NCBI RefSeq assembly: GCF_001021975.1
Contig: NZ_CP009928.1
Span: 2,546,001 to 2,610,000, forward strand
Origin: Chryseobacterium gallinarum
GTDB taxonomy: Bacteria; Bacteroidota; Bacteroidia; Flavobacteriales; Weeksellaceae
Length of the DNA stretch: 64,000 bases
Reading direction: 5' to 3'
The notes beneath the pieces are model-generated. The model searched no databases. It saw only the letters and a list, made by a program, of their open reading frames with translations, and was not told the DNA's origin. How positions within the stretch are numbered: position 1 is the stretch's first letter; the number at the start of each line of letters is the position of its first letter. The translations under genes were made by a program, and so were the position numbers. Below are positions 26,053-50,421 of this stretch, one piece after another.

Positions 26053-26126
26053 GGTCCTATAGCTCAGTTGGTTAGAGCACCTGACTCATAATCAGGTGGT
26101 CCCTGGTTCGAGCCCAGGTGGGACCA
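26053..26126 (+). tRNA. tRNA with CAU anticodon, probably tRNA-Ile2
   Basis: The 74-nt cloverleaf is complete: acceptor stem GGTCCTA/TGGGACC, D arm, anticodon stem CCTGA/TCAGG with loop CTCATAA, T arm CCTGG-TTCGAGC-CCAGG and A73. CCA is not encoded. CAU reads Met, or Ile (AUA) once TilS makes lysidine. The C4-G69 and C5-G68 pairs are the TilS recognition pairs known from E. coli tRNA-Ile2 and differ from E. coli elongator tRNA-Met, so Ile2 is favoured. It is the insertion site of the islands. Confidence 0.93.
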
Positions 26127-26127
26127 C
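26064..26127 (+). repeat. Attachment site copy 1 (left end, within the tRNA)
   Basis: From TCAGTTGG in the D arm to the C after A73, this sequence recurs at 44785-44849 with one extra G, and its last 22 bases recur at 47977-47998 with one mismatch. Such direct repeats of a tRNA 3' part mark tyrosine-recombinase integration. Confidence 0.9.
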
Positions 26128-26168: not shown

Positions 26169-26326
26169 GCTTTATTAAGGCTGTTTTTCAATAGTTTTAC
26201 TATACTTTTGAATTTTTACATACTCTAAATTTTATCAATTTTAAAATTAATTTGAATGTCTAAAAGGCATTCAATTAGGTGTACTATTTTTCTATTTTGG
26301 TGTACCATATTCTAAACTATAAATCA

Positions 26327-27544
26327 ATGAATAATAATAATAAATTATCAATACTTTTTCTATTGCAAAAAGTAAAAGTTAATCAACAGGGAAAGTGTCC
26401 TATAAGATGTAGGATTACATTTCAACAAGATAGAAAAGAGTTTTCTTTAGGGTTATTCATAAATCCTAATAATTGGAATAGTAAACAGCAGAAGGCTAAA
26501 CCACCCAATGAAGAAAACAGTTTTATTAATACACAATTAGGTCTGATTAAGAATGAAATTAATCAGGCTTTTTTATTTCTACAGGTTAATGAAGAGACTT
26601 TTGATGTAGAAGATATTTTTCTACAATACAAGGGTGAAACTCCCAAAAAGAATAGAACTGTACTTCAAGTTTTTAATGAGCATAATGAAAAGTTAGAAAA
26701 GCTGGTTGGTAAAGACTTTACTATTGGTACTTTTTGGAAATTTAAACAAGCTAAACAATTATTGAAAGACTATTTAAAATACCAGTACCAGAAGAATGAT
26801 TATCAATTCAAGGATATGAATTTGAAGTTTATTCAGGATTATGAATTTTATTTGAAATCTGAAAAGAATTTAGCTCTTGCAACTGTTAACAAAACCATAC
26901 AGAGATTCAGAAGAATGGTTAAAATAGCTATTTCAGAAGGAATAATTGATAAAGACCCCTTTATTCTTTATAGAGTTAAATTGATAAAGAAAGAAGTTGT
27001 TTACCTTACTACTGATGAACTTGAATCACTTGAAAAATATCAATTTTCTCAATCCAGATTACAGCAAGTGGCTGATATGTTTGTTTTCTGTTGTTACACA
27101 GGTTTAGCATTTCAGGAAATGGCTAATCTTGAAACAAAACATATTATTAAGGGGTTTGATGGGAACTATTGGATTAAGATGATGAGAGAGAAAACTAAAA
27201 AAGAAATCTCTATACCTCTTCTATCTAAAAGTGCTAACATAATAGAGAAATATCAGAAAATAGGAAGTATAGATAAAATATTACCTGTATTAAGTAATCA
27301 GAAATTCAACTCTTATTTAAAAGAAATTGCTGAAATTGTTGGAATTCAGAAGAATCTTACTCATCATATAGCAAGAAAAACCTTTGCAACAACAGTTTTA
27401 CTATATAATGATGTACCTATGGAGATTGTGAGTGAACTTTTAGGACATTCTAAAATTACCATTACTCAAGAACATTATGCTAAAGTAGTGAATAAGAAAG
27501 TGAGTGAACAAATGATAAAATTAGGAAAGAGGTTGAAAAGGTAG
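26327..27544 (+). CDS. Tyrosine-type integrase of island 1
   Basis: From the ATG at 26327 the product has 405 residues: an arm-type DNA-binding domain (about 1-90), a SAM-like core-binding domain (about 100-200) and a catalytic domain. Catalytic residues visible are the Lys region MREKTKKEISIPLL, HHIARKTFAT (His-x-x-Arg), GHSKITITQEHY (His and the Tyr nucleophile). The first catalytic Arg is absent: the motif reads CCYTGLAFQEM. Loss of Arg I is also known in Bacteroidota integrases such as IntDOT. It lies next to the tRNA, as expected for the enzyme that inserted the island. Confidence 0.93.
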   Translation: MNNNNKLSILFLLQKVKVNQQGKCPIRCRITFQQDRKEFSLGLFINPNNWNSKQQKAKPPNEENSFINTQLGLIKNEINQAFLFLQVNEETFDVEDIFLQYKGETPKKNRTVLQVFNEHNEKLEKLVGKDFTIGTFWKFKQAKQLLKDYLKYQYQKNDYQFKDMNLKFIQDYEFYLKSEKNLALATVNKTIQRFRRMVKIAISEGIIDKDPFILYRVKLIKKEVVYLTTDELESLEKYQFSQSRLQQVADMFVFCCYTGLAFQEMANLETKHIIKGFDGNYWIKMMREKTKKEISIPLLSKSANIIEKYQKIGSIDKILPVLSNQKFNSYLKEIAEIVGIQKNLTHHIARKTFATTVLLYNDVPMEIVSELLGHSKITITQEHYAKVVNKKVSEQMIKLGKRLKR

Positions 27545-30921: not shown

Positions 30922-31993
30922 TAAAATCAGACCAGCTACATTAGAAGAGGCATTTGACCTTAAACCTGCAAAAAGTGCTAACATAATAGAGTTAAAGAGT
31001 GTAAATATATTTGATAGTAGTGACATTGATAATAATGATGGTGTAATTTTTTCTCAGAATTCTATTTATAAAAACAAACCTTTTATTGAAGCCAATACAC
31101 AAGAAATTGATCTTTATCAATTAAAGAATGATTGTATCATTCCTGTATTCTCTAAGGACAATGAAAAAACCATTGCTCATCAGGAATTTATTGATATTAC
31201 ACAAGACTGCATTAGTAAGGTGTTTTCTCATCAATCTTTTATGCAACCTGAAATAAGAGTTTCTCATCAAATTAAAGGCAGAACTCCTGATGCTATTTAC
31301 AAGAATGCAAAAGATCTATTAGATCATGAAAGAACACAGTATTTTGAGAGAATGGCTTTCATCATTAGAATTCCTGGTATAACTGACTCGATTAATGGTA
31401 ATGAATTATCATTAACAATTGGTGGAGTTAGAGCCTATAATCAGGAGAATTTATACAATAAGAAGACTTTTGAAAAATTTAAGTTTTTCATTGGTTTCCA
31501 GAACAAAGTTTGCTGCAATTTATGTGTTTGGAATGATGGCTTTGTAGATGATATGAGGGTAAGCTCATACCAAGAGTTGCATGGTAAAATAATGAACACT
31601 TTAACAGAATACAATGCACAACAATATTTATTGGAAATGAAAGAGTTTTCAGATTATTACTTAACTGAACATCAGTTTGCTCAGTTATTGGGAAGAACAA
31701 GACTATATCAACATATATCTAAAACTGAAAAACAGAGATTAAATATCCCTCAATTAACCTTCAATGATAGTCAGTTGAATACAATAGCTAAAGACTACTA
31801 CGAAGATGAAAGCTTTTGTAAAGATGATAATGGAGAGATTAACCTATGGAATGTATATAATCTCTTTACACAAGCTAATAAGAGTAGTTATATAGATACT
31901 TTTCTTGACAGGAATTTGAACGCTTTTGAATTTAACAAAGGTATTCAGAAAACACTCAATGGTAATTCTGATTATCATTGGTTTTTGAGTTAG
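30908..31993 (+). CDS. DUF3871-family mobile-element protein
   Basis: The 361-residue product resembles DUF3871 proteins, which are common beside Sak4-type ATPases in Bacteroidota integrative elements. Notable stretches are SHQIKGRTPDAIYKNAKDLL, ERMAFIIRIPGI, GNELSLTIGGVRAYNQENLY and FKFFIGFQNKVCCNLCVWNDG. The last two blocks resemble phage/plasmid replication-associated proteins, but no catalytic motif is certain. It overlaps the Sak4-like gene by 14 bp and has a strong terminator just after its stop, so the pair forms one operon. Confidence 0.65.
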   Translation: MDTINKIRPATLEEAFDLKPAKSANIIELKSVNIFDSSDIDNNDGVIFSQNSIYKNKPFIEANTQEIDLYQLKNDCIIPVFSKDNEKTIAHQEFIDITQDCISKVFSHQSFMQPEIRVSHQIKGRTPDAIYKNAKDLLDHERTQYFERMAFIIRIPGITDSINGNELSLTIGGVRAYNQENLYNKKTFEKFKFFIGFQNKVCCNLCVWNDGFVDDMRVSSYQELHGKIMNTLTEYNAQQYLLEMKEFSDYYLTEHQFAQLLGRTRLYQHISKTEKQRLNIPQLTFNDSQLNTIAKDYYEDESFCKDDNGEINLWNVYNLFTQANKSSYIDTFLDRNLNAFEFNKGIQKTLNGNSDYHWFLS

Positions 31994-31998
31994 AAATG

Positions 31999-32026
31999 CT
32001 ATCCTATAGAAATATAGGATAGTTTT
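31999..32026 (+). terminator. Terminator ending the replication pair
   Basis: CTATCCTATA (31999-32008) pairs perfectly with TATAGGATAG (32013-32022) around a GAAA loop, followed by TTTT. It marks the boundary between the element's backbone genes and the defence cargo. Confidence 0.85.
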
Positions 32027-32048
32027 ATTATTTCTTGATTTAAAATAT

Positions 32049-32056
32049 TATTTTTG
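32049..32056 (+). promoter_or_regulatory. -7 box (TATTTTTG) of the ATPase pair
   Basis: TATTTTTG fits TAnnTTTG and lies 50 bases before the ATPase start codon, directly after the preceding terminator. Confidence 0.45.
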
Positions 32057-32106
32057 CTTAGGAAGGTTTAGCTTATAAGCTTGTAAACTTTTTTTAAATT
32101 GAATTA

Positions 32107-33324
32107 ATGGAAAAATTAGTTATTAAAAATGTTGGCCCCATTGAATATGTTGATATTCATTTATCAAGAGTTAATATATTTATGGGACCACAAAGTAGTG
32201 GGAAAAGTACAATTGCTAAAATTATTAGCTATTGTCAATGGGTTGAGAAGAGATTTTTAATTGATGAAAAATATGACTATGATGTAAAAGAACAACTTTT
32301 GGAATTCCATAGATTGGGGAAAAATTATTTTACTAAAGAATCATATTTTGAATATAGTAGTGATTTTTTGATTATATCATATTCAGGAGAGAATTTGACA
32401 CAGAGAATCACAAAAAAGAACACAAGAAAAGCATATAAGAAAACTAAAAATATTTATATACCTTCCGAAAGAAATTTTGTTTCTGCAATTCCTAATTTAA
32501 GCAAATATAAAGAAACAAATGATAATATAATGAGCTTTGTATATGATTGGTATTCAGCGAAAAGGTCATTCACAAATAGAAATAGCCTTTCTATTTTAAA
32601 TCTTGGGATTAAATACTATAACAATATTGATGCAGACCAAGACTTATTAAAACTATCAAATAACAAAGAAATATTATTACAAGAAGGTTCAAGTGGAATA
32701 CAATCAATACTACCATTAATTCTCATTGTAGAACATTTATCAAAAGAAATTTACAAAACTAACAATTCTGTTTCTGTTAGAGAACTAGATTCTATTCAAT
32801 CTAATATTGTGAAACTTTTAGAGAAATATAAAGTGGATAATATTGATATAAAAGATTATAATTTGGATCCTGATTTTCTTAAATTTCTTACTAAGTATAG
32901 TATGAAAAATATCGTAAATTATCATAAAACGCAATTTATAATCGAAGAACCTGAACAAAATCTTTTTCCAACAACTCAAAGAGATTTAATCAATTATTTA
33001 TTTAAAACAATTGTTAATAATAGTAAAAAACACTCTTTGATTATCACAACTCATAGCCCATATATATTATATTCTATTAATAATTGTTTAATGGGATATA
33101 ATATAAAAGGCGAACTTGAAAAGGATGAGATAAATTCATTTAAAAGTACAAAGTCTTGGATTAATCCTGATGATGTTTCAATATATGAAGTAAAAGAAGG
33201 AAAGTTGATGTCGGTTAAAGATAAGAGAACAAAAACTGTCACTAAGCACTATTTCAATGAAATAACAAAAGACATTATGGATGAATATTATAATATGTTA
33301 AGTTTCTTTACTTATGAAGGATAA
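32107..33324 (+). CDS. ABC-type AAA ATPase, candidate defence protein
   Basis: The 405-residue product is a SMC/OLD-like ATPase without the TOPRIM domain of OLD nucleases. Walker A is GPQSSGKST (residues 27-35), the signature region is LLQEGSSGIQSILPL (about 197-211), Walker B is TQFIIEEPEQNLFP (about 277-290) and the switch His lies in HSLIITTHSPYILYS (about 311-325). Such ATPases usually activate a partner effector. The partner is probably the next gene, which overlaps it by 11 bp. AT content is high, as in the rest of the cargo. It is not one of the named systems I can recognise with confidence. Confidence 0.85.
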   Translation: MEKLVIKNVGPIEYVDIHLSRVNIFMGPQSSGKSTIAKIISYCQWVEKRFLIDEKYDYDVKEQLLEFHRLGKNYFTKESYFEYSSDFLIISYSGENLTQRITKKNTRKAYKKTKNIYIPSERNFVSAIPNLSKYKETNDNIMSFVYDWYSAKRSFTNRNSLSILNLGIKYYNNIDADQDLLKLSNNKEILLQEGSSGIQSILPLILIVEHLSKEIYKTNNSVSVRELDSIQSNIVKLLEKYKVDNIDIKDYNLDPDFLKFLTKYSMKNIVNYHKTQFIIEEPEQNLFPTTQRDLINYLFKTIVNNSKKHSLIITTHSPYILYSINNCLMGYNIKGELEKDEINSFKSTKSWINPDDVSIYEVKEGKLMSVKDKRTKTVTKHYFNEITKDIMDEYYNMLSFFTYEG

Positions 33325-33892
33325 GATCGCAACTGTAATATCAAAATATTCATTAGACGTATTAGATTGTGAAAATTTTTTTATTGTTGATTACAAGAAT
33401 ATTAATGGTGGAGATATAGAATGTAGTTGTACTGAACCAGAAGTAGCATCTGTACATCTACATAACCCTAGTAAAATAGAAAGCTATTTTATTTTATTTG
33501 GTGAAAACTGTCTTGAAGTTTCAACGGTTGTATGCTGTAAACAATGTGAATGTGTTGTATTTCCAACTGCAGGTAATGATAATGACTGGATTCTTTGTGT
33601 AGAAACAAAGTATTGTCATAGTCTTGAAAATGCATTTAGGGAGGAAAATGACTATCCATATATTATGGTTGAAAAAATAAAAGAAACTGTTGCTTATTTT
33701 AGAAGTAAAGGATTGATTGAGAAAGGTAGAAGAGTTACAGGAGTAGTTTCCTTTCCAACATTGATAGAAGATTTTAGTGAATCTTTTAAACCTAGAGATG
33801 AATCAATTGAAGATATATTACTAAATCATAACATTATTATAAGACCTACAAATACAATCACTATAAAAAGTACAAAAAGGCTTATTGTATAA
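33314..33892 (+). CDS. Cys-rich partner of the ATPase, possible nuclease
   Basis: I do not recognise the 192-residue product. Two Cys clusters (CSC at about residues 37-39; CCKQCEC at about 74-80) could bind metal. The central DWILCVETKY (residues 91-100) ends in an E-x-K motif (E97, K99) on a hydrophobic strand, as in PD-(D/E)XK nucleases. A preceding acidic residue (D89 or D91) is closer than usual, so this is weak. The C-terminal half is helical. The 11-bp overlap with the ATPase gene argues for a functional pair, by analogy with ATPase-effector defence systems. Confidence 0.7.
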   Translation: MKDKIATVISKYSLDVLDCENFFIVDYKNINGGDIECSCTEPEVASVHLHNPSKIESYFILFGENCLEVSTVVCCKQCECVVFPTAGNDNDWILCVETKYCHSLENAFREENDYPYIMVEKIKETVAYFRSKGLIEKGRRVTGVVSFPTLIEDFSESFKPRDESIEDILLNHNIIIRPTNTITIKSTKRLIV

Positions 33893-33919
33893 ATACAATA
33901 ACTCATTGACTGAACTTGA

Positions 33920-35599
33920 TTACAATTTAATCTGACTAATAAACATTGAAGGCTTCCAATTGTGTAGAATAAATAAACCAATTTTTGCTCTACTCATACC
34001 AACGTATAATAGAGTTCTTCCATTTTGAATAGATTCATCTGTTAATTCCTCATAAATATATTTTACATGATCTATACATCTTTGGTATGGTATTCTATTT
34101 TCATTTATGCCATTTAATATTACAAAATCATATTCAAGCCCTTTAGCCTGGTGTATAGTGTTTATAGTTATACCATTAATGCCAGATAATGTTTCTATAT
34201 ACTTTTTAAAGTTCCAATTTAAAGCTTCGTCATCATTTACTATTGTCAAGATCTCATCTACTTCAGGAACATCAATCTTAAAAATCAGAGATATTATATT
34301 TTGATATTGTAATAATGATTCTTTTAATCCTGTATTTATATTAATTTTTTGAAATTGACTTATTAATTTATTTGTTGCAAACACAATTTCTTTTTCATTG
34401 AAATCAATGTTCTTTTCTAAGATTAAAAGTTCAATATTTCTTTTTATAATTTTTAAGTTCCTAATCGAGGAATCTACTGAATATCTACTTAAAGTTTTTA
34501 AGATAGCAAATACAGTGTTAGATATATTAGAATGTGGTAATGCACCTAATCCAATAATGTTGAAATACTCTCTTAAGTAGCTTCCAATATTATAGGCGTC
34601 AAACCAAGATGTTGTTAAGATTGCAATATTACCAACTTGTGCTTTGGCTTTTATCAGACTATCAATAATTTGTTTAATATAAAGATTATTGTCATCCTTT
34701 TTAGTTTGATGAAATCTGATATCGAAGGGAATATCTTTATATTTTGATGAGTTTATTAAAGTTGGATGATCTGAAAACAATTTTGAATACCCTGTTACAA
34801 TCTTTTTAGTTGATCTATAAGTATAGTTTAAATCAAGGATTTCATAACCAAAATCCTTTTTAGCAATAGTGAATGTTTCATTTAAAGCCCCTGCAAAACT
34901 ATAAATTTTTTGTTTTTCATCTCCTACAATAAAAAACGATGTATCCCCATTATTTTTTATTTTTTTTAAAATTTCATATTGGAAAATATTTGTATCCTGA
35001 AATTCATCTACAGAAATTTCCATGAAAATATTAGATACTGATTTAGCAGTAAATAAGTTCTTTGAAATAATAATATAGGAACGAAATAGTATTTCATTGA
35101 AATCAATAAGCTTTCTTTGTTTAAGAAAATCATAATATATTCTTGATAATTCTTCAAATGTAATTTTGTGGAGCCATTCAGTTGGGATTATTAAAGAGCC
35201 ATCAAGATTTTTTTTTATTTTGTTTAGGTCTTCAAGTTGAATTGTAGATAATTTATTGATTTCTAAAAATTCTTTAAAATCACTATAGGATGCAATCCTG
35301 GGTTTGTCCCATTTATATATCCATGAAAAAGGTCTTAAAATATATTCTAAACAAAATCTATGAATAGTTCCAATAAATACATCATTTTCTGTATAGTCTA
35401 ACCTTGATGCAATTTCATCAGCTGCTGCATTTGTATATGTTATTAATGCTAATTTTTTATGTTTAGGCAGATTTGTAAGTTTTTTATTTGCTCTGGCTAC
35501 TAATGTTTTTGTTTTGCCTGTTCCTGGTGAAGCACTTACAATTAAGCCATTATTATACTCATAGACTGCTTGCTTTTGAATCTCATTAAGATAATCCAT
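33920..35599 (-). CDS. gajB: Gabija helicase subunit (UvrD/PcrA-like)
   Basis: The 559-residue product is a superfamily 1 helicase: Walker A VSASPGTGKTKT (about residues 21-32), DEAD-type motif VDEFQDTNIFQ (about 200-210), FFIVGDEKQKIYSFAGA (motif III, about 223-239), TIHQAKGLEYDFVIL (motif V, about 485-499) and YVGMSRAK (motif VI, about 536-543). Next to an OLD-type ATPase/TOPRIM gene and overlapping it by 14 bp, this is the GajB arrangement. GajB is known to work with GajA in phage defence. It is the last gene of the operon and converges with the ATPase pair, 27 bp apart. Confidence 0.9.
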   Translation of the reverse strand: MDYLNEIQKQAVYEYNNGLIVSASPGTGKTKTLVARANKKLTNLPKHKKLALITYTNAAADEIASRLDYTENDVFIGTIHRFCLEYILRPFSWIYKWDKPRIASYSDFKEFLEINKLSTIQLEDLNKIKKNLDGSLIIPTEWLHKITFEELSRIYYDFLKQRKLIDFNEILFRSYIIISKNLFTAKSVSNIFMEISVDEFQDTNIFQYEILKKIKNNGDTSFFIVGDEKQKIYSFAGALNETFTIAKKDFGYEILDLNYTYRSTKKIVTGYSKLFSDHPTLINSSKYKDIPFDIRFHQTKKDDNNLYIKQIIDSLIKAKAQVGNIAILTTSWFDAYNIGSYLREYFNIIGLGALPHSNISNTVFAILKTLSRYSVDSSIRNLKIIKRNIELLILEKNIDFNEKEIVFATNKLISQFQKININTGLKESLLQYQNIISLIFKIDVPEVDEILTIVNDDEALNWNFKKYIETLSGINGITINTIHQAKGLEYDFVILNGINENRIPYQRCIDHVKYIYEELTDESIQNGRTLLYVGMSRAKIGLFILHNWKPSMFISQIKL

Positions 35600-37343
35600 A
35601 TTGTAGTTTTTTACATGATATTATGTGTTTTATAGCTCTTTCAATATATGGAGGAACTATAAAATCTTTATCAATTAACAGACTCAATTCTTGGGCAAAT
35701 CTTCCTTTTTTTATTGTACCATCAATCCTCTTAAGTAATTCTGTTTGCCACAAATCTTTGTTGGATTTTGTAATTTCTAATAAATTCTGATAGGATATAG
35801 GATGTCCCAAGTTGATAAAACACTGCTCTAAATATTTTGAATTAGTATCAGAATTTGGGAAAATATCTATTTCTAGAGTATTTGTTCCTTCACAAACAAT
35901 TACTCTGTTTTCAACTTCTAATTTTTTTGCAGTAGCTATGAAACTTGATTCTTCATCAGTTAAGTGCAAATCTCCATCTATTATGGCGGCAGCTGGTATC
36001 TCTAAATTATTATCATTTACTAGTTTTAAATATGGGTCAAAAAATCTGCTATGAATTGGAACAATAGAAATATTATGCTCAGTAAGATCAATATTGTATT
36101 TTTCCTTTGCAATAATAGGAATGATGAATTGTTCTGAAACTCCTTCCACATATATAATAGCTGATGAGAAGAAAATTTCACTTCTTGTAGCATCCAAATA
36201 TCTTTTTAATAATAATCTTTCTCTATCTAATAATAGGTTTTCCTTGAAAGGAGAAAAAGATTTAACCTCTTTTAATAAATTTAAATACAAAATATTCAAA
36301 TTTTTATATTCACAATCACTAGCTATGTGAGTTGAATGTGATGAGAGAAAGACTTGTGTAGTTTTTAATTGATTAAGATTAGAAAATAGAACTTTTTGTA
36401 ATTGTGGATGCAAATGTGCTTCCGGTTCTTCTATTAATAAAATATTGATTTCAAAATCACTACTTGAGTTTTCTAGTTCCGCAATAAATAAGCTCAAGTA
36501 AAGTATATTCTTCTGCCCTAATCCAAGAGTTTGGATGGGAATATTTACTCCATCTGTAGGGTTGTAATAAACATTAAGTTGGCTCCATGCATCTATGTCA
36601 TAATTTGAGATAAAACTTAAAGATATAGGAAATGAAAAATAGTCCCCTGCGATATTTTTCCCTTTTTCTTCAATATTGGAAGCGATTTTAGGAATAAAAG
36701 ATAATTTATTTAGACTATCAGATGATTTTCTCAATATGTCTTTTACTTCTTGAAGTTCTCCATCTGAATTTTCTCTAGAGATACAAAATTTACTTAAAAG
36801 GGATTTAGTTGAGCCATGCAAATCAGTACTAGTATTTCTGAAAGCATTTAAATAGTATAAATTAATTCCTTCTAAATCTGACATTCTTATTGATGTTAAT
36901 TGCAAAATATCATCTATTTTTAAGCTATTACCACCTCCGAAAAGTTGCCATCTAAAATCAGACATTTCAATAGTTTCCCCAATCTCAAATTCTGAATTGA
37001 ATTTTAATTTGTGAGCAAACAAAAATGTGACTCTTGCTGTATCATCTGATGTTTTTAATGCATGGAAAGTTGGAAATTCAGAAAGCTTTTTACTAAACAT
37101 TTCTATACTAACAAGAATATAATCATCGATATTTAATTTATTTCTAAATCCATGAAAGTCTTTCAGTTCCAAATTTCTTGAGTTATAGGATAAGTTTTTG
37201 TCTAGAACTAATCTTATTGCCCAATATAGATTGCTTTTACCTATATTATTTTCACCTATTATAGTCTGAAATCCTTCAGAAAAGTCAATTTCAAAATTTT
37301 TGAAGTTTCTAAAGTTTTGTATAGTTATGTGTTTAATGTGCAT
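35586..37343 (-). CDS. gajA: Gabija nuclease GajA (OLD-type ATPase + TOPRIM)
   Basis: The 585-residue product has an N-terminal ABC-type ATPase (Walker A GENNIGKS, residues 30-37; signature LGLGQKNILYLSLF about 273; Walker B ILLIEEPEAHLHP about 301; switch SSHSTH about 335) and a C-terminal TOPRIM nuclease domain (AIIYVEGVSEQ about 395, IIDGD about 447). Length and order match GajA, an endonuclease held in check by ATP and triggered when nucleotides fall during infection. The gene follows the HEPN gene upstream by 46 bp and overlaps gajB by 14 bp. Confidence 0.92.
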   Translation of the reverse strand: MHIKHITIQNFRNFKNFEIDFSEGFQTIIGENNIGKSNLYWAIRLVLDKNLSYNSRNLELKDFHGFRNKLNIDDYILVSIEMFSKKLSEFPTFHALKTSDDTARVTFLFAHKLKFNSEFEIGETIEMSDFRWQLFGGGNSLKIDDILQLTSIRMSDLEGINLYYLNAFRNTSTDLHGSTKSLLSKFCISRENSDGELQEVKDILRKSSDSLNKLSFIPKIASNIEEKGKNIAGDYFSFPISLSFISNYDIDAWSQLNVYYNPTDGVNIPIQTLGLGQKNILYLSLFIAELENSSSDFEINILLIEEPEAHLHPQLQKVLFSNLNQLKTTQVFLSSHSTHIASDCEYKNLNILYLNLLKEVKSFSPFKENLLLDRERLLLKRYLDATRSEIFFSSAIIYVEGVSEQFIIPIIAKEKYNIDLTEHNISIVPIHSRFFDPYLKLVNDNNLEIPAAAIIDGDLHLTDEESSFIATAKKLEVENRVIVCEGTNTLEIDIFPNSDTNSKYLEQCFINLGHPISYQNLLEITKSNKDLWQTELLKRIDGTIKKGRFAQELSLLIDKDFIVPPYIERAIKHIISCKKLQYGLS

Positions 37344-37389
37344 TTTTTAGCGTGGTTATAGTTTGTTATTCAAGTTTAAACTTTTTTTT

Positions 37390-39120
37390 TCAAATTTCAA
37401 ATTGAAATCTACCTATTCTTAGAATACATAGTATTATCAAACTTATTGTTTTGAAATTATAATCAGCTGTTTTATAGAAACTATGGGCAATATTATTTCT
37501 AACATTAATGCCTTGTCGTGTAAAAACAAGTTTAAATAATTCTATTTCCGCTTCTTCATAATTCTCTTTTATAACTTTATGCTCAAGCATTTCTTCTAAT
37601 AATATTTCTTCACTAACTCCATTTTTGATTTTTATTGTTGAGCCTCCTAAAAGCCTTATGAAATCTCTAAGAATTCCTTCAAACTTTAAAGTTAAAGAAT
37701 CAATACTTAAAATGTAAAGATCTGTTTTGAGCTTGTTATGGATAGCTTGATGTTCAAACAGACTAAAAAAATTATATATGCCAGGTTGAAGCAATGTTAG
37801 CCAACTTTCTTCAATTTCTATATTTCCTTTATAAAATTTAGTAGGTTGTCCAAGCCATGTATTTTTGAGGAAGTCATTAAAGTTTTGATAATTTAAATGT
37901 CCATTAATAATTGATTTATAAAGTGTCTGTTCAAATATTGGCATAAAGAATAAGCTGTAGTAAGCTGATATATTTTCACTTAAATTATTCTTACTTCTCT
38001 TTTCAGTAGTATTATTATTAATGTCCATTAATATAGTATTGAAAACACCATCTAATAATGGTTTATTTCCTTTTTCAGTTGTTACAGTGTGTAAATTCTT
38101 AAAATCAGTTGCAAAGTATCCAATTATATATTCTGCACTTAATGTTGAAAGAAACGAGCTTTTGGAGTCAATGATTTTCCATAATAACTCTAATTCTTTA
38201 CTGTCTTCACTTGACATGGAGAAGTTAGTTTTATTAAGATTTATATCAAATTTAATTTTAGTTAATTCTTCTAAAGTTCTTTCACTATCTTCAACCTTTC
38301 CAGCCAACTTTTCATATTCAGCTTTTTTTCTTAATAAATTTAGCTTGATAAAATCATTTTCTTCTCTATGATTAATTAAAATTTTCTCATTCTCAGCCAT
38401 TAAAGAATATACTTCTTTTACCGAAAGCTTAGCCTTTTGAATTAAAGGGAGTAAAGTTTCAAGTCCATTTTTGTTGTGAAAATAGTATTGTATTTCTAAT
38501 TTTACATAGTCTATATAATCCGAAATTATTATATTTAGTAATGCTGACGAAATCAATTTATTATCAACTAATTGCTCTAAATAGAAATAAAAATCATAAG
38601 GAGTTTTAATGTACAGTTTAAAAGCTTGAAGAAAATTTAAAAAATCTTCTTTTCTATATTTAGATTTTTCAACAATGTTTCTACATATAAGCAATAATTC
38701 ATTGGCATCAATAAATGTGATGTTTTTAGAGTCAATACTTTTTTTTAGAATATCAAAAGTTTTGTCAAATGCCAATTTTGAATATTCTTGATTTTTAGTT
38801 TTATTCCAAAGGATAATAAGGTATCTTATTGTAATGTAAGGGTTTTGAGTATTTTCAATCCTTTCTTTTATATAATCTGTTTCATAATTAGAGAATAATT
38901 CATCAAAGACAATTTCTGGACTAAAAAATCTACTTATAAGTTTGCCTTTATTGAACATTAGTGAAAGAATTTTTCTTTCAATTTTAATAAGTTCTATCTC
39001 TTCATCATTTAATCTCTCATCAAACTTAATTTCAAGAACATAATCAGTGTCTTTTGTATTAATATCCTTAGTAAGTTCAAGTTTTTGGTACAGTTCTTTT
39101 AGGTTAGCTTTTTCCATCAT
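37390..39120 (-). CDS. HEPN-motif protein, DUF4209-like C-terminus
   Basis: The 576-residue product is almost entirely helical. Its C-terminus has GINVRNNIAHSFYK with RNNIAH at residues 541-546, the Rx4H active motif of HEPN ribonucleases and close to the RNxxxHG signature of DUF4209. The N-terminal 450 residues resemble helical repeats and may sense or bind a partner. It overlaps the upstream HEPN gene by 4 bp (ATGA) and precedes gajA by 46 bp in the same direction. RNase activity is inferred from the motif only. I know of no described system with this exact gene order. Confidence 0.75.
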   Translation of the reverse strand: MMEKANLKELYQKLELTKDINTKDTDYVLEIKFDERLNDEEIELIKIERKILSLMFNKGKLISRFFSPEIVFDELFSNYETDYIKERIENTQNPYITIRYLIILWNKTKNQEYSKLAFDKTFDILKKSIDSKNITFIDANELLLICRNIVEKSKYRKEDFLNFLQAFKLYIKTPYDFYFYLEQLVDNKLISSALLNIIISDYIDYVKLEIQYYFHNKNGLETLLPLIQKAKLSVKEVYSLMAENEKILINHREENDFIKLNLLRKKAEYEKLAGKVEDSERTLEELTKIKFDINLNKTNFSMSSEDSKELELLWKIIDSKSSFLSTLSAEYIIGYFATDFKNLHTVTTEKGNKPLLDGVFNTILMDINNNTTEKRSKNNLSENISAYYSLFFMPIFEQTLYKSIINGHLNYQNFNDFLKNTWLGQPTKFYKGNIEIEESWLTLLQPGIYNFFSLFEHQAIHNKLKTDLYILSIDSLTLKFEGILRDFIRLLGGSTIKIKNGVSEEILLEEMLEHKVIKENYEEAEIELFKLVFTRQGINVRNNIAHSFYKTADYNFKTISLIILCILRIGRFQFEI

Positions 39121-40637
39121 TTTTTAAATTGATCATCTAAAGTAAATAATTGCATGCTTCCAAGTTCATTAGAGTTATATTCCTTTTTACCTTCTTCGAT
39201 ATTAATGAATAGAGAAGTATATATTATTGCAGCTCTAATTGTTTTCATTAGTTTAAATGTTTTATCTATGAAATCATTTCTGTCTATAACATATGTAAAA
39301 TTATCTTTTGGGGTTCTTGAGTTTTCAAATTCGACAATTTTAAATGATTTATGTTCTATAAAATTTCTAATTGTAGATAGCTCTTTAGCTTCTGGTTCTA
39401 AAAATGAATGTAAATCTTCTTTTTCAAAAAAATCTTTGTAAAGCCAAAACAATCCTCTTAATGCCCAATTTTGACTTTCCATGATTATTGGATTTGGTTT
39501 TCCTTTCACATACCATATTTTTCTATAATTTACTTCTCTAGATTCAAAACCTAATTTTAAATAAGTATTTATTAAATAGGCAATTTTGTCCAAAATGGAA
39601 TAAAATGTTCTAAATGCTATTTTACTTTTTTCAAGATTATAGGAATATGTTGAATAATCAAGAATGTCTATGATAGCATTTTCTCTATCAGAGAAATGAG
39701 GTTCTTGATTAGTAATAGAATCATAAAATAAATATCTTGCAGAGCAAAACTCTTGCTTAATTTGATTAAAAAACGAATGATAATTATAAATCTCTAAATC
39801 TGCTTTTTTTACAATAATTGTTGGGAGACACAATATATCTTGTGCAACAATGTCATCATTTATGATATCATTTAGTGGATTTAAGAATAATCTATTATTA
39901 ATACACCATTTCCTATATTTTTTTTCTTCTAAACTTTCTCCTAAAGAATAATTGTCAAAAATATTTTCAGAATTCAAAAATGTATTATCTACTTTTTCTT
40001 CTATCCAAGAAACAATTTGTGAAAACGACATTTTAGCTTCAGGATAAATATCATTTGACATTATTGCTTTCTTTAAGTAATTATATGATTCTTTTAAGAA
40101 GTAAGCTTTGTGAGAATCATCATAGAGAACTTGTGCATAATGAAATAATCCAAACCCAAGATTTCCTATTGCCATTGGAAAATCTTTTTTAATACTTAAT
40201 ACTTTTTGCCAAGCATCTATTGCTTCTGAAAATCTTCCTAAATGGCTTAAATCATTACCTAAATTTGTCAATACTTCACATTTTCTAGAGACGTTTTTTG
40301 TATCTTTAGAATGAAGTAGAGCTTTTCTGCAATTTAGAATTTCTTGAACTAATTCTTCAGTTTCAAATTCCCAAAACTCTGGACTATTTAGATTTTGAAT
40401 CATCATTTTTTTATAAGACCAAGCATTAGACAAATTGTAATAAAATGTCATTTTATCATCATCTGTAAAGTTATCTAAATTAACCATTGATGAAATTTTA
40501 ATCCCTTTTTCTAAATCTTTAAGTGTATTTAATTCTCTTGAGTATTCATATATAGAACCCAAGATTAGATTAATTTCATTTGGCGTATTTTCATTTATAT
40601 TATCTAACTCTAAAAAAGCTTTTAACTGATTTTGCAT
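39117..40637 (-). CDS. TPR protein with C-terminal HEPN (LA2681-like)
   Basis: The 506-residue product has TPR-like helical repeats (clear unit CEVLTNLGNDLSHLGRFSEA, residues 120-139, then IDAWQKVLSIKKDFPMAIGN) in its N-terminal part. A C-terminal helical domain carries STIRNFIEHKSF; RNFIEH at residues 424-429 is again an Rx4H HEPN motif. This domain order resembles the LA2681-type HEPN family. TPRs often sense or scaffold in defence proteins. It is the first gene of the four-gene operon and has a -7 box 17 bases upstream. Confidence 0.75.
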   Translation of the reverse strand: MQNQLKAFLELDNINENTPNEINLILGSIYEYSRELNTLKDLEKGIKISSMVNLDNFTDDDKMTFYYNLSNAWSYKKMMIQNLNSPEFWEFETEELVQEILNCRKALLHSKDTKNVSRKCEVLTNLGNDLSHLGRFSEAIDAWQKVLSIKKDFPMAIGNLGFGLFHYAQVLYDDSHKAYFLKESYNYLKKAIMSNDIYPEAKMSFSQIVSWIEEKVDNTFLNSENIFDNYSLGESLEEKKYRKWCINNRLFLNPLNDIINDDIVAQDILCLPTIIVKKADLEIYNYHSFFNQIKQEFCSARYLFYDSITNQEPHFSDRENAIIDILDYSTYSYNLEKSKIAFRTFYSILDKIAYLINTYLKLGFESREVNYRKIWYVKGKPNPIIMESQNWALRGLFWLYKDFFEKEDLHSFLEPEAKELSTIRNFIEHKSFKIVEFENSRTPKDNFTYVIDRNDFIDKTFKLMKTIRAAIIYTSLFINIEEGKKEYNSNELGSMQLFTLDDQFKK

Positions 40638-40653
40638 AATGATTAAATTTAGT

Positions 40654-40661
40654 CAAAATTA
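40654..40661 (-). promoter_or_regulatory. -7 box (TAATTTTG) of the HEPN/Gabija operon
   Basis: TAATTTTG on the minus strand matches TAnnTTTG and ends 17 bases before the first start codon. A single promoter here would drive all four genes, since the internal gaps are 46 bp or overlaps. Confidence 0.5.
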
Positions 40662-40744
40662 CATTAGATCTACGCAAAGTATTTGCATACTTTTTATTAT
40701 AAAAAATTTTTTTAAAAAAAATTAAGCTTTAGTTCTCTTTTGTT

Positions 40745-40794
40745 CCCCCCTATAAAAACCCCCACCCATCCTTGGGAATAGAAAACATCCCCCC
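40745..40794 (-). other. G-run cluster, possible G-quadruplex
   Basis: In an otherwise AT-rich spacer (40638-40917) the plus strand has C6 (40745-40750), C5 (40759-40763), C3 (40765-40767) and C6 (40789-40794). The minus strand therefore has four G-runs within 50 bases and could form a quadruplex. The rest of the spacer shows no gene. An origin or transfer function is possible but unsupported. Confidence 0.5.
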
Positions 40795-40917
40795 ACCAGT
40801 AATGATATAAACAAAAAATTCGCAGGTAGTAATACAATCAAGGTGATAGCTGATGTATTATTGCTCACAATTCTTTTGTTCCTGGTGTTTTTATCTAACT
40901 CAAAAATCAAAACAATG

Positions 40918-41312
40918 GTAACAATTATCAACTACAAACAAAGACAAAAAGAAGATGGTTCTACATTCTATGTACTAGAAGTTCAAGGAGGTATTGAAAT
41001 GGTTATGAGCCAGACTACAAATCAATTCTATGCTACATCCAAAAAGGCTTCAATCACATCAACATTTGATGAACTTACTTGTCAAGCTCTGATAGGTACT
41101 CAGATGCAAGGAAGTATCATTAAGCAGGAATGTGAACCCTATGAATATACTGTTAAGGACACAGGAGAAATGATTATTCTCCATCACAGGTTTTTGTGTA
41201 CTCTGCACAGGAACCAGGAAAGGAAAATACTGTTAATAAACAGGTAGTTAATAGCTTTGCTACTGATATGGAGTCTTTCTCTAAGAATGGAAAGCATGTA
41301 GAGTTTGTTTAA
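40918..41312 (+). pseudogene. Small conserved mobile-element protein, frameshifted
   Basis: The ATG at 40918 opens MVTIINYKQRQKEDGSTFYV, a protein type common in Bacteroidota elements, with GGIEMVMSQTTNQFYATSKK and TCQALIGTQMQG. The frame then stops at 41247 with an unlikely tail. Moving to the next frame at the five-T run 41191-41195 gives a sensible continuation (VYSAQEPGKENTVNKQVVNS onward) to a TAA at 41310-41312, just before a strong terminator. Loss of one T (or gain of two) explains this; slippage on the T-run or a sequencing error are alternatives. The family may bind single-stranded DNA, but this is not shown. Confidence 0.7.
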
Positions 41313-44784: not shown

Positions 44785-44849
44785 TCAGTTGGTTAGAGCA
44801 CCTGACTCATAATCAGGTGGGTCCCTGGTTCGAGCCCAGGTGGGACCAC
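44785..44849 (+). repeat. Attachment site copy 2 (island 1/island 2 junction)
   Basis: This is a 65-bp copy of the tRNA from the D arm to its 3' end, identical except for one inserted G in the variable region. The 5' acceptor strand is missing, so it cannot be a working tRNA. It marks the right end of island 1. Confidence 0.9.
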
Positions 44850-45948: not shown

Positions 45949-46129
45949 TTCAAATTGTATTTTTGATTAAACAATATGACAACTTTAGCTGTGTCATCTC
46001 TCAGCCATTTCAGATGTCTGATGATAACATGATTAATAAACCATTGCAATTATACAACTTATATTGTAAATTATGGTAAAAACAAATATAATTATAGAAA
46101 ATAAATACCCACTGATTTAAAAGATTGTA

Positions 46130-46137
46130 TATATTTG
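46130..46137 (+). promoter_or_regulatory. -7 box (TATATTTG) of the metallopeptidase/PIN pair
   Basis: TATATTTG fits TAnnTTTG and ends 5 bases before the ATG at 46143, so transcription should begin at or next to the start codon. It also overlaps an in-frame ATG at 46125, which rules that start out. Confidence 0.55.
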
Positions 46138-46142
46138 TCAAA

Positions 46143-47288
46143 ATGAGTACGAGAGTAGAAAATATTAACAGCGAGATAATTGAATGGGCTATTATGAGAA
46201 ATGGTAATAGCTTAGATGAATTTTTCATAAAAAATCCGGAAGTCAGAATGTGGATCGAAGGAGAGAAATATCCTACTGTTAAACAACTCGAAAAATTTAC
46301 TCATAAAGTGCATGTTCCTTTTGGTTATATGTTTTTACCTAATCCTCCTGAAGAAACAGTTCCATTACCTTTTTTTAGGACACTAAATGAAGGAGGTGAT
46401 AATACTATAAGTTTAAATGTTTTTCATACTGTTCAAATAATCCAAGAAAGGCAAAATTGGCTAACAGAATATTTAGATGATTTAGAGCTTCCTGATTTAG
46501 ATTTTGTTGGCAAATTTAATGTACATGATGATTATAGAGAAATTGTTCATGACATAAAAAGTACTTTAGGACTAGCTGATGATTGGGCATCGTATCATAA
46601 GAACTGGGAAGATTGTTTAGAATTTCTAACAAATAAAATCGAAGAGTTAGGAATTATCGTAACATTTAATGGTATTGTTGGTTTAAATACTCATAGACCT
46701 CTTGCTGTAAAAGAATGTAGAGGTTTCGTTTTGGTAGATAGAAAAGCACCGTTTTTATTCATTAATTCTGCTGACGCAAAATCGGCACAGATGTTTACTT
46801 TGATACATGAATTAGCTCATGTTTGGTTGGGAGAAAGTGCTGGATTTGATAATCAAAACCTTCTACCTGCTGATCATCCACTAGAGATTTTGTGTGATAA
46901 AATTGCAGCAGAATTTTTAGTCCCAGAAACTATTTTTAAAGTATTTTGGCATAAGAATAAAGATTTAAGATCTTTAAGTAATAGATTTAAAGTTAGTCAA
47001 ATAGTTATTGCTAGGAGGGCATTGGATTTAAAGCTAATTTCAAGAAAAGATTTTTTAGATTTCTATAATATACAAATGCAGGAGTTTAGAAATTACAGAG
47101 AAAAATTAAAAGATTCAGATGGAGGAAACTTTTATGCTACTGCTAAAAAAAGAGTGAGTTTGAGATTTGCTTCGTTTGTAGAATATGCTTTGAAGCAGAA
47201 TAAACTCTTATATAGAGATGCATATAAATTGACTAGTTTGAAAGGGGATACCTATAATAGATTTGTAAACGAATATTTGTATAAGTGA
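46143..47288 (+). CDS. ImmA/IrrE-type zinc metallopeptidase with XRE-like N-terminus
   Basis: The 381-residue product begins with an XRE-like helical domain (about residues 1-65, LDEFFIKNPEVRMWIEGEKY), then a linker and an ImmA/IrrE peptidase domain with the zinc motif LIHELAHVWLGE (222-230 core) and a third acidic ligand in CDKIAAEFLVPE. Members of this COG2856-type family form pairs with small PIN proteins resembling toxin-antitoxin systems and can cleave regulators. The start is fixed by the -7 box. Its stop overlaps the PIN gene start as GTGA. Confidence 0.88.
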   Translation: MSTRVENINSEIIEWAIMRNGNSLDEFFIKNPEVRMWIEGEKYPTVKQLEKFTHKVHVPFGYMFLPNPPEETVPLPFFRTLNEGGDNTISLNVFHTVQIIQERQNWLTEYLDDLELPDLDFVGKFNVHDDYREIVHDIKSTLGLADDWASYHKNWEDCLEFLTNKIEELGIIVTFNGIVGLNTHRPLAVKECRGFVLVDRKAPFLFINSADAKSAQMFTLIHELAHVWLGESAGFDNQNLLPADHPLEILCDKIAAEFLVPETIFKVFWHKNKDLRSLSNRFKVSQIVIARRALDLKLISRKDFLDFYNIQMQEFRNYREKLKDSDGGNFYATAKKRVSLRFASFVEYALKQNKLLYRDAYKLTSLKGDTYNRFVNEYLYK

Positions 47289-47782
47289 AAAAATATTTAT
47301 TAGATAGTAACATTTTAATTCAGGCTCATCGAATGCATTATCCATTTGATGTGTTTCCATCATTTTGGAGTAAACTAATAAATTTATCTGAAAACAATTT
47401 TATTCTAAGTATTGATAAAGTAAAGAAGGAGATATGTGAAATTTCAAATCCAGATAATTTATCAAATTGGTGTATGAATGATATTCATGATACATTTTTT
47501 GTTGATACGAGTTCTTGTGTTGATGCATATTCTCAAATAGCTATTTGGGCTAACGCAAATACACAATATACCCAAAATGCGAAAGATGAGTTTTTACAAA
47601 CTGATTTAGCTGATCCATGGCTAATAGCTTATGCATTGAAGAATAATTGTAAAATTGTTACTTATGAGAATAGTGATCCATACGCTAAAAGAAAAATAAA
47701 AATTCCAGAGCCTTGTAATCATTTTGGAGTTGAGTTTACAACTCCAATTCAAATGATGAGAGAATTAGGTGATACATTTTAA
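47285..47782 (+). CDS. PIN-domain protein (DUF4411-like), probable toxin
   Basis: The 165-residue product has PIN-type acidic residues: D7 in KKYLLDSNILIQ, an acidic E in VKKEICEI (about residues 40-47), and the DLADPWLIAYALKNNCKIVT block (about 107-126) with further Asp. This suits a DUF4411-type PIN RNase. The start codon is GTG at 47285, overlapping the metallopeptidase stop by 4 bp. The pair probably acts as a toxin-antitoxin or defence module that stabilises island 2. Confidence 0.82.
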   Translation: MKKYLLDSNILIQAHRMHYPFDVFPSFWSKLINLSENNFILSIDKVKKEICEISNPDNLSNWCMNDIHDTFFVDTSSCVDAYSQIAIWANANTQYTQNAKDEFLQTDLADPWLIAYALKNNCKIVTYENSDPYAKRKIKIPEPCNHFGVEFTTPIQMMRELGDTF

Positions 47783-48492: not shown

Positions 48493-50421
48493 ATGGCAAT
48501 TGATCTGTATAAGGCAACAACTAAATCTTTAGTAGGAAATAAAGCATTTAATTTAATGAAAGTCGCTAAGGCGGGAATTGCTGTTCCACCAGGATTTGTC
48601 GTTAATAGTGCTGAAAATCTTTCAGATAAAAAACTTATAAAATTGTATGATAAATTTATATCTCATGGAAAAGCTTCAGTTAGGTCAAGCTCTGATAAAG
48701 AAGATGGAGAAAAGAAATCAGCAGCAGGTATTTATAAAACATTGCTAGATGTTTCTTCTGCTGAAATAGGGATATCTCTTCAGGCAGTAAGAGAATATTC
48801 TAGAAAAAGTAAAAATATCCCCGTGATTGTACAAAAGCAGATTGATCCAAAGATGTCTGGAGTGGCTTTTTCAATAAATCCAGTTAATGGAGACAATGAT
48901 ATTTACATTGAATATAACAAAGGACGATGCGAGAATATAGTGTCTGGAAGCATCATCCCCAAAACGGTTTCCTTAAAAAAGAAATCTTACGAAGATAATG
49001 GAGACATCCCTTTAACATTGTATGAATACATAATTCGTCTTGAGATGATTTTTAAAGAGCCAGTGGATATTGAGTGGTGTATAGACCATGACGAAAAAGT
49101 ATGGATATTACAGTGCAGAGCTATAACTGTGATCCCATCTGATTCTTTTCGATATGCATGGTCAACACACGAACCACTTTGGGCAATGGAGCAGGCTTTT
49201 AAAACAAGATGTGAAGATGAGGAAAATGAGAGTAGTGAACTTTATCTTCATAGGGAAATTATTTATAGCAGAGATTCAAGCGGAGCGTTTGATTGCTACA
49301 TTGGGTTGAATGACCACATTTCAGCATTAAAATATTCAATGAAAGTACTTTCTAAACAATATGATGATATTGATCCCATTGAATGTATTGAACGTCCAAA
49401 ATCATTTTCAAAAGATACTGCTATTGATTATTTCAAACTGCTATCATCACATTACTGCAAATATATCCGGTATTATATGCGTTCAGAACCTATTGTAACT
49501 GATATCATTGAAAGGAAGTTGTTATTAAGGTGGTCTCATAATGAAATTGCAGAACTGTTATCAGCTGGTAACGATGACTTAATGTTTCGTGAGCAAGAAG
49601 ACTTTTCATCTTTAAATGACAATAGTGATTGCAGTATACTTAACCACATAAATAAATACCCTTACCTTGCTATTAACTACAAAACTAAAAAAGAAATGAT
49701 AGAAGGAGTGAGAGGACAGTATAAAATAAAGGATAAGAATAAGAATAAGAATAAGAAGGATAATTTTCAATTGAATCTGGATAGTGATTTAATTTTTTTA
49801 AAAAAATTGTCAATTGAAAGAATGAATGTAAAGAAAGGTTGGGCTGGAGTTTATTTTTACATGTTGGAACTAATGGAGTGGATTTATGAAAACTACAATG
49901 TATCTCAGAGTGATTTATATCAATATTACCTTACTGATGACATCGTGGCATTAATCAAAAACAATATTAAGCTGTCACAGGCAGAGAAAAATAAAAGGAA
50001 CCTCGGTGTGTTAATGAAAAGAAAGAAAAATAAACAAATGACACCGCGCATTTACTTTGGTAAATCATTTGAGAGTAACTATTCACCCACACCATTATTA
50101 AACAGCATCCTTTTTGGAATACCATCTCTAAACAGAAATGTTCATGGTATTGTGAAGGTAATTAATTATAAATCAATAGTGGATCCTCAGGATTACATTG
50201 ATAAAATAATTGTCACGGAAATGACGCAACCTAATATGGTAGCCCTGTTCAGAAAATGCAAAGGGATCATTACAGATGAAGGAGGGATATTGTCACACGT
50301 TTGTATACTATCAAGAGAATATAATATTCCTTGTATTGTCGGAACATCAAATTCGACTAAGATTCTCCAAGATGGGGATGAAATTATCATGTGGGCGGAT
50401 GGCCATATTTCTTATGAATAG
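48493..50421 (+). CDS. PEP-synthase-like phosphotransferase, RPH-type architecture
   Basis: The 642-residue product has an N-terminal ATP-binding domain of the pyruvate-phosphate dikinase/PEP synthase type (LVGNKAFNLMKVAKAGIAVP, ASVRSSSDKEDGEKKSAAG, FSINPVNGDND, VDIEWCIDHDEKVWILQCR). A variable helical middle (about 225-530) has a Lys/Asn-rich patch. The C-terminal phosphohistidine domain has EGGILSHVCILSREYNIPC with the acceptor His at 602. The PEP-binding barrel is missing. This is the layout of rifampin phosphotransferase (ATP, substrate, His domains), but shorter and with a different middle, so the substrate is probably another small molecule. Confidence 0.8.
   Translation: MAIDLYKATTKSLVGNKAFNLMKVAKAGIAVPPGFVVNSAENLSDKKLIKLYDKFISHGKASVRSSSDKEDGEKKSAAGIYKTLLDVSSAEIGISLQAVREYSRKSKNIPVIVQKQIDPKMSGVAFSINPVNGDNDIYIEYNKGRCENIVSGSIIPKTVSLKKKSYEDNGDIPLTLYEYIIRLEMIFKEPVDIEWCIDHDEKVWILQCRAITVIPSDSFRYAWSTHEPLWAMEQAFKTRCEDEENESSELYLHREIIYSRDSSGAFDCYIGLNDHISALKYSMKVLSKQYDDIDPIECIERPKSFSKDTAIDYFKLLSSHYCKYIRYYMRSEPIVTDIIERKLLLRWSHNEIAELLSAGNDDLMFREQEDFSSLNDNSDCSILNHINKYPYLAINYKTKKEMIEGVRGQYKIKDKNKNKNKKDNFQLNLDSDLIFLKKLSIERMNVKKGWAGVYFYMLELMEWIYENYNVSQSDLYQYYLTDDIVALIKNNIKLSQAEKNKRNLGVLMKRKKNKQMTPRIYFGKSFESNYSPTPLLNSILFGIPSLNRNVHGIVKVINYKSIVDPQDYIDKIIVTEMTQPNMVALFRKCKGIITDEGGILSHVCILSREYNIPCIVGTSNSTKILQDGDEIIMWADGHISYE

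Follow-up and report, generated by a model that had tools for sequence, protein, structure and literature searches.

A candidate two-gene HEPN cassette stacked on Gabija in Chryseobacterium gallinarum

Gabija has anti-phage activity, and its two proteins, GajA and GajB, form a complex. Here we describe a Gabija locus of Chryseobacterium gallinarum in which two genes encoding HEPN-type proteins, of the LA2681 and DUF4209 families, precede gajA in the same run of genes. The locus lies in a stretch of 64,000 nucleotides (NZ_CP009928.1, positions 2,546,001-2,610,000), taken from a 4.63-Mb single-contig genome; we call this stretch the window and give coordinates in its numbering. Like other Gabija systems, it encodes an ATPase-TOPRIM protein and a UvrD-like helicase from overlapping genes, with the expected motifs present. 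It differs in the two HEPN genes, since neither family was found at a further 40 Gabija loci in the genus, chosen as the best of a partly scored set of listed matches.

Both HEPN families were known before, as predicted ribonucleases (RNases): PMC3710099 (2013) lists LA2681 and C6orf70/DUF4209 among the HEPN families with intact active sites. The LA2681 entry in Table 1 of that paper reads "Fused to TPR, and in operon with TPR" (TPR, tetratricopeptide repeat), and the window protein shares both the TPR-HEPN fusion and the intact motif; here, however, DUF4209 and Gabija come next, and Gabija does not figure in that entry. For C6orf70/DUF4209 the table gives an intact motif and a fusion to TPR, and the family is noted in operons related to restriction-modification (R-M). 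In the window it is paired with LA2681, whereas LA2681 is absent from the 10 further DUF4209 loci in the genus. A further parallel is offered by PrrC-PrrI and other HEPN genes of R-M operons, where a DNA-cutting defence system likewise has a HEPN gene in its operon (PMC3710099). PrrC has its own ABC ATPase and a type I R-M partner, whereas at the present locus neither HEPN protein is fused to an ATPase and Gabija takes the partner's place. A suicide back-up role has long been proposed for the HEPN RNases of R-M operons (PMC3710099, section 10). Within the portions of the literature that were searched, LA2681 and DUF4209 were named nowhere except in PMC3710099, and no description of an RNase arm of Gabija was met, the coverage being partial and no proof of absence. 

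The four-gene run and its two modules

Four genes of the same direction occupy positions 33920-40637 of the minus strand, in the order LA2681 TPR-HEPN, DUF4209, GajA, GajB. Gene 1 (39117-40637) encodes an LA2681 protein of 506 amino acids (aa) with an N-terminal TPR array and a C-terminal HEPN domain that carries RNFIEH at residues 424-429. The 576-aa DUF4209 protein of gene 2 (37390-39120) consists of helical repeats and a C-terminal HEPN-like domain with RNNIAH at residues 541-546. The two genes share a 4-bp ATGA start/stop overlap (39117-39120) and are followed by a 46-bp gap (37344-37389). Gene 3 (35586-37343) encodes GajA, a 585-aa ATPase and TOPRIM nuclease, and overlaps by 14 bp gene 4 (33920-35599), which encodes the 559-aa UvrD-like helicase GajB. 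An initial annotation, made from the sequence alone, had described this arrangement, and the coordinates of the open reading frames (ORFs) match it exactly in strand, overlaps and gap; both motif positions were likewise correct. Its assignment of the last two genes to Gabija also holds. GajA matches PDLC00070 of PADLOC (8.4e-97), PF13175 (AAA_15; 2.5e-39) and PF20469 (OLD-like TOPRIM; 1.8e-14) and carries EEPEAHLHP at 305, YVEG at 398, IDGD at 455 and KKGRFAQ at 545, while its Walker A region, GENNIGKS, is spaced differently from the motif pattern scanned. GajB matches PDLC00127 (6.8e-78) and, among solved GajB chains, gives a best match of 1.6e-16; the helicase motifs are present.

Related copies show where the run divides. 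Positions 31121-41201 of the window, that is, the four genes and their flanks, are 94.6% identical to contig 4 of C. tagetis (L006), which has the same four-gene order and is not an independent copy. A second C. tagetis locus, on another contig (L007), matches positions 37398-40696 only (88.2% DNA identity), the shared DNA beginning 59 bp before gene 1 and stopping 8 bp short of the end of gene 2. There the pair is followed by a small ORF and by HamA (PF08878, 2.2e-50) and HamB, which make up Hachiman, and no Gabija was found within the 17.5-kb stretch. The 4-bp overlap of the pair is kept in both C. tagetis loci. A single four-gene system as the default reading was rejected, since L007 carries the HEPN pair without Gabija. 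In Chishuiella (L008), LA2681 is all that is common to the window (75.8%). The pair thus behaves as a cassette, and LA2681 is able to occur apart from DUF4209. In the window, this LA2681-DUF4209 cassette of two genes is stacked on Gabija.

We consider it probable, though well short of certain, that the locus represents two defence modules, stacked on an integrative island and co-expressed as a single transcription unit from one front promoter. The first module would be the self-contained LA2681-DUF4209 pair, probably translationally coupled. The repeat halves of both proteins would detect a signal of infection, and their HEPN domains would pair to form a metal-independent endoribonuclease that halts translation in the infected cell, leading to abortive infection. 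The second module would be an ordinary Gabija, with GajA-GajB cutting phage DNA. A shared front promoter would thereby provide DNA-cutting and RNA-cutting layers together, and no physical contact between the modules would be needed.

Upstream of gene 1, a -7 box, TAATTTTG (40661-40654, minus strand), lies 24 bp before the start codon and agrees with what we take to be the Bacteroidota consensus. The window, L006 and L007 copies of the pair each have a TAnnTTTG match at -24 or -25. The box annotated at the front of the run is thus present, but to speak of one box was too strong: TAnnTTTG has seven matches on the minus strand in the approximately 7.0 kb scanned, a number close to our estimate of what base composition would give. 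None falls within the 46-bp gap. Because matches recur, and one of them (37445, inside DUF4209) lies 102 bp upstream of gajA, gajA may have its own internal promoter.

Family and motif conservation of the HEPN proteins

The HEPN identity and the TPR repeats assigned at the outset were both recovered by profile searches. The product of gene 1 matches PF18733 (LA2681-like HEPN) with an E value of 8.2e-70 (234.8 bits, cut-off 27) as well as TPR_1 (4.7e-6), and that of gene 2 matches PF13910 (DUF4209) with an E value of 4.2e-10 (40 bits, cut-off 22.3). All 12 aligned DUF4209 members match PF13910 at E 0.01, and the C-terminal part of the gene 2 protein also matches PDC-S39, a single-gene candidate of PADLOC (3.3e-6). 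R424 and H429 are invariant in 20 of 20 aligned LA2681 homologues, and the DUF4209 RNxxxH is invariant in 12 of 12 and likewise in a set of 7, so that the Arg and His on which the proposed RNase activity had been made to depend are conserved in both families. The Pfam domain scan found no ATPase domain in either protein, and no domain fusion of the HEPN proteins to Gabija was found in the domain scan. Profile comparison of DUF4209 with LA2681 gave no relation (probability 0.6%), and a sequence search of the Protein Data Bank (PDB) with DUF4209 matched no chain. The predicted structure of LA2681 has a mean local confidence score (pLDDT) of 86.3, and its TPR half resembles solved TPRs.

Neighbourhoods of LA2681 and of Gabija

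Profiles were built for GajA, GajB, LA2681 and DUF4209 and scanned against fetched loci. Outside the genus, as far as the hosts are known, the sample comprised 41 LA2681 loci (L008-L016, L033, L036-L038, L049-L055, L101-L117 and L124-L127). Eighteen of them come from viral contigs with no host given, and several run into contig ends; the islands L124-L126 are nearly identical, and L108-L110 are likewise close copies of one another. Of 19 plasmid matches, 7 were taken in, and part of the scan covered ORFs of at least 100 aa in the middle of each stretch. A GajA-GajB pair was found in 0 of the 41, and so was DUF4209. In these 41 loci, no link between LA2681 and Gabija was seen beyond the genus. 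Weak GajA- or GajB-like matches in L016, L055 and L106 (20 to 38 bits) were not counted, L106 being clipped at a contig end where Gabija may lie, and L129, which falls below the PF18733 cut-off and has internal stops, was left out of the counts.

Several of these loci have other defence-like neighbours. In L124, LA2681 is flanked on one side by a methylase locus that includes an AbiC-like gene and on the other by a Panacea-type gene, after which comes the gene for a 710-aa protein with a sub-threshold NERD match. Proteins of 710 to 718 aa with such a NERD (nuclease-related) match stand near LA2681 in both L008 (5770-7926) and L124 (12164-14296); they are 44.5% identical to each other, and the arrangements differ. 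On a viral contig (L033, 7884-10202), LA2681 is convergent with the Pycsar cyclase PycC (2.7e-100). Phage records yielded one unannotated LA2681 match, and a single-sequence search of viral contigs with DUF4209 gave nothing.

Inside the genus, LA2681 was found at five loci in 4 of 296 relatives searched: the window, L006, L007, L034 and L035. Gabija is in the same gene run in the window and L006. In L034 it is convergent with LA2681 at a distance of 4.4 kb, and in L035 it lies 0.4 kb upstream of an LA2681 gene that is truncated. The L034 protein is about 23% identical to that of the window and about 80% identical to the L035 piece. At L034 and L035, LA2681 is joined by two further families, which we call X (319 to 348 aa) and Y (264 to 270 aa, or 264 to 275 aa when L136 and L137 are included). 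X has an RNKxxH motif invariant in 4 of 4 aligned copies. Y keeps N-x3-H and lacks the Arg (4 of 4), and its scanned copies matched no Pfam family. Sub-threshold HepT-like matches were obtained for X in L035 (E 0.017) and for one L034 copy (0.042). The L136 copy gave no such match, and the second L034 copy matched no family. Profile comparisons of X with DUF4209 and with LA2681 gave probabilities of 0.3% and 0.2%, RNKIVH aligning with RNNIAH in the former, and a sequence search of the PDB with X returned no useful chain. The invariant RNKxxH together with the HepT-like matches suggests that X is HEPN-like.

Seen from the Gabija side, the 40 further loci of the genus, from which remnants and other genera had been removed and in all of which GajB stands beside GajA, held neither LA2681 nor DUF4209; X or Y was present in two of them (L136 and L137, whose GajAs are 94% identical). 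HEPN-type neighbours (LA2681, DUF4209, X or Y) thus occur at 6 of the 44 genus loci examined, namely the window, L006, L034, L035, L136 and L137, which represent four lineages, and this excess is unremarkable. Shedu SduA follows gajB after 5 bp (L165) and 10 bp (L166), making a Gabija-Shedu gene run, PRTase-CE follows after 47 bp (L156), and a PDC-M34B-like gene overlaps by 25 bp (L163). Because other genes stack equally tightly on Gabija, the 46-bp gap alone is no sign of a joint machine. In three genus genomes (L089-L092), four GajB-like ORFs (358 to 464 aa) stand beside a short ORF that is 63 to 64% identical to residues 488-581 of GajA; these are apparent remnants of a close relative of the window Gabija, and their stretches gave no match to LA2681 or DUF4209. 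Taken together, the surveys on both sides suggest that LA2681 and DUF4209 mostly occur apart from Gabija, which supports stacking.

Two controls were drawn from the same genus. All 19 HamA loci above the cut-off were taken in, three of them clipped and with stretches of up to 20 kb; Gabija was present in one (L184) and the LA2681-DUF4209 pair in one (the L007 locus). At DUF4209 loci without LA2681, the GajA-GajB pair was found in 0 of 10, one of which was clipped to 9 kb; a lone 376-aa GajA-like ORF in L047 (49 bits), without GajB, was not taken as Gabija.

Against these controls, several results weigh against plain stacking or against the RNase role that it assumes. Three of the four independent LA2681 loci of the genus (L006 being excluded as non-independent) lie within 5 kb of Gabija. 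One-sided Fisher tests gave 0.0087 against HamA and 0.011 against DUF4209, with tiny numbers, related genomes and a test chosen after the loci had been seen. To lessen the bias of looking only near Gabija, X was searched in 97 genus genomes. It matched in 4, and its copies fall at three loci: L035, L136 and L034, the last with two copies, one of them interrupted by an internal stop. All three lie within 5 kb of Gabija, with one weak fragment on contig 46 of G012 outside the count (Fisher 0.0026 against HamA). The X and LA2681 tests are not independent, because L034 and L035 are counted in both. As to fold, matches listed by Foldseek and VIA-align for the full-length LA2681 model were mainly TPR proteins; the TPR half filled both lists, hence the lack of a HEPN fold match, and the fold is unconfirmed in this way. 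The DUF4209 model is of weak quality, and no HEPN protein was recognised among the 50 Foldseek matches shown for it. On numbers that are small and share two loci, the proximity of LA2681 and X to Gabija suggests more than plain stacking, and a loose, recurrent Gabija-HEPN partnership of the PrrC-like back-up kind is possible. The association proposed in the initial annotation therefore stands in part: it is seen in the genus, while the L007 pair lacks Gabija and LA2681 loci elsewhere do not share it.

The first alternative is that the HEPN proteins guard Gabija. They would be silenced by it, or would watch it or the DNA ends or nucleotide changes it produces, and would cut RNA once a phage disables it, much as PrrC acts for the type I system PrrI. 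LA2681 and X recur near four GajA lineages (window, L034, L035 and L136) that are only 23 to 28% identical to one another. In Marinobacter (L013, 3545-13986), moreover, LA2681 is embedded in a type I R-M operon, hsdR-hsdS-LA2681-DarT-macro ... hsdM, overlapping hsdS by 4 bp and DarT by 16 bp in a PrrC-like position. PMC3710099 proposes such logic for HEPN genes in R-M operons, and PMC12839542 does so for HEPN and OLD/TOPRIM back-ups in BREX. The L007 pair, however, stands upstream of Hachiman with Gabija absent, the GajA-GajB pair is missing from every LA2681 locus examined elsewhere, and neither HEPN protein is fused to a Gabija domain. We regard guarding as a tentative alternative and a rather unlikely one. 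Of similarly limited likelihood is a broader scenario, in which unrelated Chryseobacterium GajA lineages would repeatedly have gained HEPN-type RNases (LA2681, DUF4209, X and Y) as a second line for when Gabija is blocked or overwhelmed, the window pair being a heterodimeric HEPN nuclease.

A toxin-antitoxin pair, with one HEPN protein as the RNase, the other as its non-catalytic neutraliser and Gabija as a bystander, would suit a two-gene cassette with a 4-bp overlap in a mobile context. Neither protein looks inactivated, however, because both keep the Arg and His in every aligned homologue, and both are long and carry repeat domains, presumably unlike usual antitoxins. We therefore consider this improbable.

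The carrier island and the meaning of the pair

The stacked modules appear to be carried by an 18.8-kb tRNA-Met island, whose ends are placed from repeats. The 3' part (26064-26127) of a tRNA-Met gene on the plus strand (26053-26127) would be the left end and a 65-bp repeat at 44785-44849, 98.5% identical to it, the right end. A tyrosine integrase gene (26279-27544, plus strand; PF00589, 6.2e-16) adjoins the left end, and a related 44-bp stretch (88.6%) lies beside an integrase at the Chishuiella LA2681 locus. Convergent with gajB is a two-gene unit (32107-33892, plus strand) encoding an ATPase near PDC-M29A of PADLOC (8.3e-65), together with a 192-aa partner that has no assigned family; this PDC-M29-type pair is a third defence-like module on the island and is present in L006 too. 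Just outside the island, a gene for an IrrE-type peptidase overlaps a DUF4411 gene (46125-47782, plus strand) in an arrangement that looks toxin-antitoxin-like, and positions 48493-50421 (plus strand) encode a 642-aa protein of phosphotransferase-like architecture, with PPDK-N and PEP-utiliser mobile domains.

The two modules could also be neighbours in a defence island by chance, each with its own promoter and without a shared role. This reading could draw on the PDC-M29-type pair and on the TAnnTTTG upstream of gajA as a candidate promoter (its matches being about as many as we estimate from base composition), yet it is very improbable given the 46-bp gap, the common strand and the same order in L006, itself a non-independent copy.

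The LA2681-DUF4209 pair would be a natural example of two distinct full-length HEPN proteins that both keep intact motifs and whose genes overlap. As a mobile cassette seen in one setting with Gabija and in another with Hachiman, it offers a clean test of whether such a back-up works alone, with any DNA-cutting partner or with a specific one. If HEPN-type RNases have indeed been gained repeatedly, Gabija would be the core of a layered, DNA-then-RNA defence system with interchangeable RNase parts.

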